This document shows, in pieces, positions 46,400-49,584 of a DNA stretch of 64,000 nt. Source of the DNA: Thermotoga sp. Mc24 (GTDB taxonomy: Bacteria; Thermotogota; Thermotogae; Thermotogales; Thermotogaceae); NCBI RefSeq assembly GCF_000784835.1, contig NZ_JSFH01000007.1:62001-126000 (forward strand), written 5' to 3'. The stretch's first letter is position 1. Each line of letters starts with the position of its first letter. The position numbers were made by a program, and so were the translations under genes. The notes under the pieces were generated by a model that did not search any database, was not told the DNA's origin, and worked only from the letters and a program-made list of their open reading frames with translations.

Positions 46400-48946
46400 T
46401 CAAAAAACGTTGAGCCCTATCCCTTCTTCCGTGTCGAAACCAATACCGCTGTTCGGGAAATCTCTTATGAAGAAAAGAATGGAGAAACTTTCGAGAGTGA
46501 AATTCCTGCCGAATGAAGCTGAGACCTTCGTTCCAAGACAGTGCAGTGCCTTTTCGATGGACAGAGAAAATTTTTCCACATTCCAGTCTTTCAAGGAAAA
46601 AGATATTTCCAGCACCGGATCACCATTCTTTGTCTGATAAGAAAATTCCAGGTTGTCGCTGGAATAACTCATTTTCAAAGAGTGAGTGGACTCTCCTTTT
46701 TTAAACGTCCCACGTATCCAGAATTTATCCAGTTCAAAGGGATCAACGTTCAGCTTTGTATACGCCGTTATTTGCGGATTTTCCATGAAAAGGAAACTCT
46801 TTCCGTATATCCTCATCTGATCCTCAATGTACTTGATGTGTGGTTCTCTGTAGTAGTAGGTGAAATAGAATCTGTTCAAAAAAGCTCCCATTCTCTGCTG
46901 GAAGTTCCAGCTGGTGTAACTTCTGCTGATCTCATCCAAAACGAATCGGGTTGTGGAGTTCACGGTGTGAGTGATCTCTCCTGTTTTGAACGAGTAAGAG
47001 GCTTTGAGATACGGATCCGAGAACTCCTTGTCAAGGAAATCGTAGGTTGTCTCCAGAGAAGATTCGAAGTTTCCGTAAGAGAGTGCGGCTTTCAAATCGA
47101 TCTCGTTTTTTGCCTCATTTTGGTAAAACTTTCTGAGGTTTTTCCCAGAAACCGTGAAAAGCTTGTAGTAACTCTCAAAAGAGAAAGGCCCCACGGGTAC
47201 TCTGAGTGTGGTTGTGAACAGATTTCCGACACGGTAGCCGTCTTCGTTCGATCTGTACACGCCAGCGTATATTTTATCATCCAGTATGAGGAACTTTCCG
47301 AGGGAAAGATTCCGAAAGTCCCATATGGAGTCTGTCTTGAGGTAACTCGTTCGTTCGTCGAGGTTTTGGTTTTCAAACAAGTACTTTCCAGTGGTACTGA
47401 CGCTCACGGACTGAAAAAGCAAGAAGGGAACGGAACGAAAAGAAAGACTCACCGACCCGGAGTTTCTCTTTTCCTGATCATCCATACGCGTTTCGTGGTT
47501 GAAACTGTCCACAGAAAAAGTTCCTACATCCGTTTTGACGGTCACTTTTTTCACAGTTACTCGTGGGAATATGTAACTGTCTTTGCCATCCGATTCTTTT
47601 TTGAGAATCACGTCAAGGCTTCCGTTCAGAATCTTCTCTTTTCTTTCGAACTGGTATACTCTCTCTTCGTTTTTCTGTGAGAAAAGGAAGGTGTTCTTGC
47701 TGTCGAAGAACTTTACCAGAACGCTGTGGGATGTCGATTCTTTGTAGTCCAGATTCAAAGACCAGTTTCCCACCTTGTGATTCCAGTTGAGTTCCTTCGA
47801 TAATTCTCCATTCAGTACACTTTTGGTTGAAAAATACAGGAGTCCAGAGGGGTAAGACACGTTGTAGGAGGTTTTCAGGTAAGGATTATTCCCCACGCCC
47901 ACTTCAACGGAGAACGGTTGCGGTTTGTCGGATAGAGAAGTGAAAAAGATGGGTTGATAAAACAGCGGTATCTCCAGAAGATAGAAGACCACATCCTTTG
48001 CCAAGAGGTAGTCGTTCTCTTTTATTTCTATGTATCTGGCTTTGAGTTTGTAATGGGGTGGGGTTTCCGAGCAAGTAGAGATAGAACCCATTTCCATAGT
48101 CGTTTTTGATCCCTCAGAAGTGAGCTCTTCGCTGGACAGATAAATTTTCTTCTTTTCTTTTTCTATTTCGAGAACAGTGCTTCCCCGTATGTGAGTAAGG
48201 ACACTTTTTTCGTTTTCTAGATAGAAGATCAAACGTTCACTCATCAGAATCGTATCGGCTTTTCTGTATATCACTCCGCCTGAAGCTTCGAGTTTTTTCG
48301 CTTTTCCTTCTTCGGTGAGCTGAACTGTGGCTTCGCTCGCCTGGACAGTCATATCTTTGTAGGCTATTTCAACATTTCCATGAAAGATCATTTCCTCTGG
48401 AAACCTTTCCATTCGATCGGACACTATGACAACCTGTGATGAAAAAAGAGAAGAAACGACGAGGATAAAGACGACGAAAAACAGTCTCGAGAGAAATTCT
48501 GTGATTCTGTAAGCGAGAAAGGTATCGAGAAGGATAAACAGGAGAGTTCCAACTATCGTGAACACGATGTTTGGTATCCACGGTGCGAGTACAGGATCAA
48601 GAAGATTTTCCTTTCCCATGGCACTGAGCCACGCTCCGCTTCCCTGATAAAGAACAACGAGTACGAAGGTGAAGATCACACCCCAGGATTTGCTTCTCAG
48701 CTGAAAGAGAAGAGAGAGCGGCACTCCAACGAGCACTATCACTATTGGTGTCAGAGCGTTCTCGTATCTGCTGTGAAGCTCTACGATCCAGGGAGAAGGT
48801 TTCACTCCCACTTTTTTGAAGAATTCTATCTTTTCCTTGAGTTCCCTTCCCGTCATCTCTTTCGGTGTTTTTCCCACACGAAGGAGTTTTTCTACGTCCT
48901 CCGTGATGTCCAGTTTCATCTCAGAAAAATGCACGTCGAGTTTCAA
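46400..48946 (-). CDS. LptF/G permease C-terminal half fused to OstA/LptD-like outer-membrane protein
   Basis: 848 residues from a TTG. Residues 1-160 are the C-terminal half of a YjgP/YjgQ (LptF/G) permease: a conserved PKEMTGRELKEKIEFFKK segment, then ENALTPIVIVLVGVPLSLLF and three further helices. A hydrophobic stretch (about 160-180) leads into an OstA/LptA-like beta-jellyroll (MIFHGNVEIAYKDMTVQASEATV), then an LptD-like domain with AKDVVFYLLEIPLFYQPIFF and a roughly 500-residue beta-rich barrel ending in Phe (GIGLNVF), the usual outer-membrane C-terminus. The frame continues upstream of the TTG as NNDWYLFDGRYYTVDKDGF, which belongs to the permease, so the first half (48943-49584) is one base out of phase. 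No internal start behind a ribosome site splits permease from OstA part. Confidence 0.8.
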   Translation of the reverse strand: MKLDVHFSEMKLDITEDVEKLLRVGKTPKEMTGRELKEKIEFFKKVGVKPSPWIVELHSRYENALTPIVIVLVGVPLSLLFQLRSKSWGVIFTFVLVVLYQGSGAWLSAMGKENLLDPVLAPWIPNIVFTIVGTLLFILLDTFLAYRITEFLSRLFFVVFILVVSSLFSSQVVIVSDRMERFPEEMIFHGNVEIAYKDMTVQASEATVQLTEEGKAKKLEASGGVIYRKADTILMSERLIFYLENEKSVLTHIRGSTVLEIEKEKKKIYLSSEELTSEGSKTTMEMGSISTCSETPPHYKLKARYIEIKENDYLLAKDVVFYLLEIPLFYQPIFFTSLSDKPQPFSVEVGVGNNPYLKTSYNVSYPSGLLYFSTKSVLNGELSKELNWNHKVGNWSLNLDYKESTSHSVLVKFFDSKNTFLFSQKNEERVYQFERKEKILNGSLDVILKKESDGKDSYIFPRVTVKKVTVKTDVGTFSVDSFNHETRMDDQEKRNSGSVSLSFRSVPFLLFQSVSVSTTGKYLFENQNLDERTSYLKTDSIWDFRNLSLGKFLILDDKIYAGVYRSNEDGYRVGNLFTTTLRVPVGPFSFESYYKLFTVSGKNLRKFYQNEAKNEIDLKAALSYGNFESSLETTYDFLDKEFSDPYLKASYSFKTGEITHTVNSTTRFVLDEISRSYTSWNFQQRMGAFLNRFYFTYYYREPHIKYIEDQMRIYGKSFLFMENPQITAYTKLNVDPFELDKFWIRGTFKKGESTHSLKMSYSSDNLEFSYQTKNGDPVLEISFSLKDWNVEKFSLSIEKALHCLGTKVSASFGRNFTLESFSILFFIRDFPNSGIGFDTEEGIGLNVF

Positions 48947-49584
48947 GAAACCATCTTTATCGACGGTGTAGTACCTTCCATCGAAAAGGTACCAGTCGTT
49001 GTTTTTTTCTGAACCCTTTTTGCAGTGACTATTGTTTCTTCACGCCCGTATCTGAAGATAACCACGTTCCACATTGTGCTCGTTCTCTCGTCGTATTTTT
49101 CCACGTAGAAGTACTGGTCGTCTCCTATCTTTGAGATGACGTTTTCAATGACAAAAACCTCGGGTTTTTTCAGAACGTACTTTGACATCGCTTCTTCTGC
49201 TTTTGATTGATACTCAGGAACGATTTGATCGCTGAGGAAGAAGACCGCGATGGAGAGAAAAGCCCCAAGAATCAGAAAGGGAACGATCAGATTTTTCTGG
49301 GAGATTCCGTGAACCTGGATGGCCATGAGTTCTCTTTCCTCGGAAAGGCGGGAAAACGTCCAGAAAATGGCGAGGAGCACACCAACGGGAACACCCATGG
49401 CGACAAAGTAAGGGAGGTAGTAGTACAGCATGAGAAAGAGTTTTGCTATTCCCACCCTGTGCCTCACTATCAGATCGGAGAGCTGGTAGAGAATCTCGAG
49501 ACTGACGAAGACGATGAAACCACCAAGACCGATCAGGAACGGGATGACAGAAAGTTTCAAGAGATATTTAATCAGAACTTTCAA
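48943..49584 (-). CDS. LptF/G-type permease N-terminal half, frameshifted
   Basis: 213 residues with three transmembrane helices (13-33, 50-78, 100-118) and the YjgP/YjgQ pattern MGVPVGVLLAIFWTFSRLSEERELMAIQVHGIS plus a beta-jellyroll start (YFYVEKYDERTSTMWNVVIFR). Up to KRVQKK it is normal permease; after the run of seven A at 49002-49008 the frame gives a short non-family tail and stops. Reading one extra A continues as NNDWYLFDGRYY into the next gene. Either a frameshift mutation, a sequencing error, or expression by slippage or reinitiation at the overlapping TTGA. Overlaps phoU by 17 nt. Confidence 0.8.
   Translation of the reverse strand: MKVLIKYLLKLSVIPFLIGLGGFIVFVSLEILYQLSDLIVRHRVGIAKLFLMLYYYLPYFVAMGVPVGVLLAIFWTFSRLSEERELMAIQVHGISQKNLIVPFLILGAFLSIAVFFLSDQIVPEYQSKAEEAMSKYVLKKPEVFVIENVISKIGDDQYFYVEKYDERTSTMWNVVIFRYGREETIVTAKRVQKKTTTGTFSMEGTTPSIKMVS

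Follow-up and report, generated by a model that had tools for sequence, protein, structure and literature searches.

A conserved LptF/G–LptD fusion gene in Thermotogota and Bipolaricaulota and its putative internal signal peptide

In Thermotogota and Bipolaricaulota, the LptF/G permease and LptD are encoded by one fused gene, which is conserved over the two phyla and under selection. In the window, that is, the whole stretch of 64,000 nucleotides of Thermotoga sp. Mc24 DNA that was analysed, this gene is interrupted by a frame break; it is the fusion, not the frame shift, that makes the locus of interest. With a probability of about 0.7 we favour the reading that the gene gives rise to a single precursor, from which signal peptidase I would release two proteins, an inner-membrane permease and an outer-membrane LptD, exporting a (glyco)lipid other than lipid A. 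The components as such are already known; new is the joined gene with a putative internal signal peptide, kept over two phyla, and no description of an LptF/G–LptD fusion was found in the open literature searched.

The fused gene and its parts

On the minus strand of the window, a short frame (48943–49584, 213 aa) starts with TTG behind GGAGG (49584), reads ...RVQKK before a run of seven A (49002–49008; minus-strand letters GGGTTCAGAAAAAAACAACGACTGG) and stops at 48943; the TTG start and the Shine-Dalgarno sequence are kept in relatives. This frame matches PF03739 over positions 1–200 of 353 (E 7.8e-50), and the −1 frame, which is without stop from about 49009 to 46400, matches positions 197–351 of 353 (E 1.7e-32) and then LptD_N. 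Since the two matches abut at the A run, they represent a single permease cut in two rather than a chance arrangement. In the alignment to relatives, the A run is the place where a base is lacking; the alignment ends at residue 194–197 of the short frame, the last ~17 residues of which are therefore out-of-frame noise. The coordinates given in the preliminary description, with the −1 break at A7, are thus borne out by the frames and their matches, as is the C-terminal Phe; its estimate of about 1,060 residues for a read-through product agrees with the 1,059–1,062 residues of the uninterrupted relatives in the genus. The parts of the locus are:

49003..49584, minus strand: 5′ part of the fused gene, N-terminal half of the LptF/G permease with TM1–3 and the first part of the periplasmic jellyroll (PF03739 1–200/353)
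49002..49008, minus strand: A7 run, site of the frame break (relatives G004 and G006 read CAG AAA AAA GGT AAC GAC, unshifted)
48943..49002, minus strand: out-of-frame tail of the short frame, TTTGTFSMEGTTPSIKMVS and stop, not a conserved protein (alignment to relatives)
48536..49003, minus strand: C-terminal half of the permease in the −1 frame, with the remaining jellyroll and TM4–6 (PF03739 197–351/353)
48437..48514, minus strand: segment AYRITEFLSRLFFVVFILVVSSLFSS, resembling an internal signal peptide and placed between TM6 and LptD (sequence; a helix in the model, followed by pLDDT <50; Bipolaricaulota and split genes have textbook signal peptides)
near 48436–48442, minus strand: putative signal peptidase I site (sequence)
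47936..48433, minus strand: LptA/LptD_N jellyroll (beta-taco) with a TC...PHY motif (profile matches, model)
46403..47914, minus strand: LptD-like outer-membrane beta barrel with C-terminal Phe (Foldseek: LptD 5iv9, E 2.9e-19)

In the relative G004, PF03739 is matched over positions 1–351 of 353 with 302.8 bits, above the curated cut-off; in the window the match is split over the two frames. The AlphaFold model of another relative (L071) has six transmembrane helices and a periplasmic jellyroll (strands 149–225) between TM3 and TM4. With the full domain, the six helices and the jellyroll, the permease is like LptF and LptG of the LPS exporter, and 29 of 29 members of the fused family match both TIGR04407 and TIGR04408, although the best member listed stays below the equivalog cut-offs of both. 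Unlike the LptF plus LptG pair of the LPS exporter, there is normally one LptF/G gene per genome (PF03739 search of Thermotogota; LptB is also present), which implies that the permease would work as a homodimer; a further difference is that the permease is here joined to LptD.

Judged by sequence and model, the C-terminal part is LptD, comprising an LptA-like jellyroll and a barrel of the LptD fold. Pfam LptD_N (PF03968) is matched by 12 of 29 members, NCBIfam returned LptD (NF002997, best E 9.4e-11) and LptA, and a profile search of the PDB returned LptD and LptA chains; the Pfam profile of the LptD barrel found no match in the members searched. A model of the window's own C-terminal part (pLDDT 87) begins with a helix, which is followed by a jellyroll and a long barrel, and all of its top 20 Foldseek hits are LptD, the best (5iv9, full-length LptD) at E 2.9e-19 with a modest TM-score of 0.42. 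A TTC...PHY motif is nearly invariant in the aligned members, its Cys invariant. The protein thus shares with the LptD translocon the N-terminal jellyroll, the Cys/PHY motif, the long barrel and the C-terminal Phe, but differs from it in that the barrel is very divergent (about 10% identity) and lies in the same frame as a permease.

Distribution, partners and cargo

PF03739 is matched in 100 of 103 Thermotogota genomes, and in about 88 of the 100 (counted from the results table) the frame holding the match stays open for 950 codons or more; several of the others run into the end of their contig. Among 100 Bipolaricaulota genomes searched, ~75 of the 91 with a match have a frame of at least 950 codons, and a scan of genome contigs yielded eight Bipolaricaulota loci, every one of them a single long frame (1,046–1,164 codons), with one running off its contig. 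Over both phyla the fused frames measure about 950–1470 codons. Compared with G004, dN/dS in the window is 0.03 for the 5′ part of the permease, 0.07 for its 3′ part and 0.10 for the LptD part. Long single frames in both phyla together with these low values mean that the fusion is genuine and of old standing, and that selection maintains it. The preliminary description had proposed just such a union of an LptF/G permease, an OstA/LptD jellyroll and an outer-membrane barrel, to be abandoned if all relatives had separate lptF/G and lptD genes; the fusion was instead found in two phyla. In almost all Thermotogota genomes and in most Bipolaricaulota, LptD is contained in the gene of the permease, and the shared fusion may bear on the relationship of the two phyla. 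An outer-membrane gene survey listed the Thermotogae as being without nearly all genes studied, bamA apart (PMC8871954).

Signal peptidase I, BamA, LptB and a separate LptA-like protein are encoded in the same genome; the LptC family gave weak matches in the genus and its near relatives, and these fall on the LptA-like genes. The LptA-like protein, which has a signal peptide, is found in G004 (L126, 6957–7574) and in G000 (C12:49164–49688), and its gene lies near those of a patatin-like protein and an Ompalpha-like coiled-coil protein, both named by eye. With LptB, LptF/G, an LptA-like protein and LptD, the Lpt route of these diderms without LPS would seem to be nearly complete, and its cargo becomes a direct question. 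None of the 61 genomes searched has LpxC, while the controls were positive, which speaks against lipid A from the Lpx pathway as cargo; the cargo would then not be ordinary lipid A but another amphiphile, perhaps a glycolipid. Glycolipids have been proposed as Lpt cargo in LPS-less diderms, with Lpt orthologues of T. maritima cited (PMC10353723); Borrelia burgdorferi, the case treated there, is likewise an LPS-less diderm with an Lpt exporter, but its LptF, LptG and LptD are encoded by separate genes. The diderm Firmicutes resemble the Thermotogota in having one LptF/G homologue instead of two, but they do possess LPS genes, and no LptD was found in them (PMC5007114).

The joint between permease and LptD

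The LptF/G proteins of E. coli have their C-terminus in the cytoplasm, behind TM6. The fused proteins examined continue beyond TM6 with a few basic residues and a hydrophobic segment, which leads into the jellyroll of LptD; by inspection, the joint has a positive n-region, a hydrophobic core and small residues at −3/−1 ahead of the exported domain. In Bipolaricaulota it is often a textbook signal peptide (the slash marking the putative cut: RLRRLVPFALIIALGSANGWAQ/ELPP, SAFAQ/DEEK, WPAQA/APQT and also ...ANGWAQ/E). The c-region in the genus Thermotoga, SSLFSSQ, is weaker than that; the LptA-like protein of the genus begins with a signal peptide of similar appearance, MKKLLIAFFILVSLFAFSK. The full AlphaFold model of a relative has a helix at the joint (356–373), followed by the longest low-confidence gap of the model (pLDDT <50 at 371–383) and then the jellyroll. 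Within Thermotogota, the joint is also the least conserved hydrophobic stretch, with a conservation of 0.31 as against 0.46–0.79 for the transmembrane helices.

Under the precursor reading, one chain would be made, with the permease in frame with a complete LptD and an internal signal peptide as the joint. The permease would insert through TM6, and the hydrophobic segment behind it would direct the export of LptD as its signal peptide until signal peptidase I cuts behind this segment; BAM would then put LptD into the outer membrane while the permease stays in the inner membrane, the two in a ratio of one to one. Together with LptB and the separate LptA-like protein encoded elsewhere, they would form an Lpt exporter for an amphiphile other than lipid A. 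Precursors of this kind have a precedent in FbcH of Bradyrhizobium japonicum, the cytochrome b/c1 precursor, in which a membrane protein and its secreted partner are joined by an internal signal peptide that is cut by signal peptidase, as experiment has shown. FbcH comprises respiratory proteins that are unrelated to the Lpt fusion, whose precursor would work alike. The Lpt fusion would add a rare bacterial case in which an inner- and an outer-membrane protein are joined via an internal signal peptide.

Natural split forms bear on the same question. In one Thermotogota metagenome-assembled genome (UR.bin268, locus L103) the TGA stop of the permease coincides with the joint; within a few bases there follows an ATG, from which an LptD starts with a signal peptide of its own, MHLRYKSFSPVLFIISLFFIILSGTKVFSA/TAY. 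Another such genome, G051, has two permease genes in tandem (L038, L039) and, on another contig, an LptD with an N-terminal signal peptide; no other Thermotogota genome seen combines a pair of full LptF/G paralogues with a separate LptD. A tree of the permeases, whose bootstrap is not fully settled and in which the G051 branches are long, places L103 and both G051 copies inside fused clades with support of 100/99; this nesting makes them look like secondary splits. Two Bipolaricaulota genomes (L150, L151) also have adjacent but separate frames. In the lineages with such forms, at least, the two halves are thus able to function separately.

Besides the Bipolaricaulota signal peptides and the split genes, the low conservation of the joint and the gap in the model were counted in favour of the precursor; counted against it were the weaker c-region of Thermotoga and an unspecific motif scan. 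The latter, which compared the joint with the in-out helices of these permeases for the signal-peptidase motif, failed to tell them apart (TM5 passes in 39 of 39 rows listed), and the motif alone was for this reason not used as proof of a signal peptide. Several Bipolaricaulota rows turned out to be other-frame frames of the same loci, admitted by the length filter and visible as very long branches in the tree, and the Bipolaricaulota rows were on that account left out of the statistics of the motif scan and of conservation and dN/dS.

Should the protein stay uncut, the joint would add a seventh transmembrane helix to the permease, and a single chain would cross inner membrane, periplasm and outer membrane and tether the toga; the energy-coupled permease and the surface translocon would then be one molecule that also pins the toga to the cell. 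We regard this as unlikely, though not negligibly so. The weak c-region in Thermotoga itself and the indifferent motif scan speak for it, as does the persistence of the fusion over two phyla, which could mean that continuity is needed. Against it stand the textbook signal peptides at the Bipolaricaulota joints, the split LptD with its own N-terminal signal peptide nested among fused forms, and the poor conservation of the joint segment. The putative internal signal peptide and the natural split versions consequently make a mature protein spanning both membranes, as envisaged earlier, less likely, while the fused gene itself stands.

At one further joint, that of L037 (G045), a proline-rich linker and a near-lipobox (VTGFC) were seen behind the internal signal peptide; by its sequence this fused protein may be lipidated or tethered.

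The frame break in strain Mc24

A homologue of the fused gene was found in 60 of 61 genomes searched, nearly always as one open frame of about 1,100–1,200 codons, and all six genus-mates are unbroken. At the site of the break, G004 and G006 read CAG AAA AAA GGT AAC GAC TGG without a shift, other relatives GAG GAA AGA or AAG GAC AGA; the A run is not conserved among the relatives compared. Judging from these comparisons, the break looks like a one-base homopolymer deletion, which either arose in the assembly as an error or is a mutation of very recent date, and not like a programmed event. A second clean one-base loss lies in the same window, in panB (ketopantoate hydroxymethyltransferase, identified by eye; minus strand, ~54695), where T6 stands in place of T7 of G004.

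A true mutation of the strain, perhaps arisen in culture, with the exporter lost or rescued by slippage, is possible, yet we would put it somewhat below even odds; it concerns the break only and is compatible with the precursor reading of the fusion. It is favoured by the single clean base loss within a conserved frame and by the quality of the assembly: a first tally gave 4 of 159 genes frameshifted, but the reverse comparison showed two of these to be ambiguous or broken in G004 instead, so that over ~197 kb of the source contig two clean breaks face up to three candidate breaks in G004 itself, and the assembly is not unusually error-rich. Disfavouring it, practically all other genomes of the phylum retain the gene, for which reason its loss should be costly, and the strong purifying selection on all three parts shows no sign of relaxation, which would make any break very recent.

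Far less probable is a functional split, with a ribosomal −1 shift or transcript slippage on A7 yielding a short permease fragment plus some full-length protein. The A7 run is there, selection is the same after the break, and a hairpin (48969–48994, minus strand) starts ~7 nt downstream of the run (region z −2.2; 6 of 200 shuffles as good); its stem, like the run, is not kept in the closest relatives. A programmed −1 site of the form X XXY YYZ would be in phase with the upstream frame and conserved in relatives, whereas the heptamer A AAA AAC found here has its codons AAA AAC in the post-shift frame, that is, in the wrong phase; as the split is moreover local to the source assembly of 12 contigs, programmed frameshifting is unlikely. 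The short product would also stop within the jellyroll, no relative in the genus has a shift, and panB has suffered the like homopolymer loss. A −1 shift is thus no mechanism conserved in the genus, the comparison of run and frame having shown no genus-mate that needs one; from the options listed at the outset, mutation or sequencing error emerges as the best, and slippage is unlikely as well. Reinitiation at the overlapping TTGA where the short frame ends, with TTG 48946 opening a second functional gene, was rejected as next to impossible, since it would leave two half-permeases, the PF03739 match crosses the break and the relatives are continuous.

Apart from the window, two broken copies were seen, one with an in-frame TAA within the barrel (L044, G050) and one with several frameshifts in the Marinitoga lauensis draft (L121). 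The fused proteins of family f11 (e.g. L042, L088) are ~300 residues longer than the others (1,434–1,474 aa), with the extra part after the permease.
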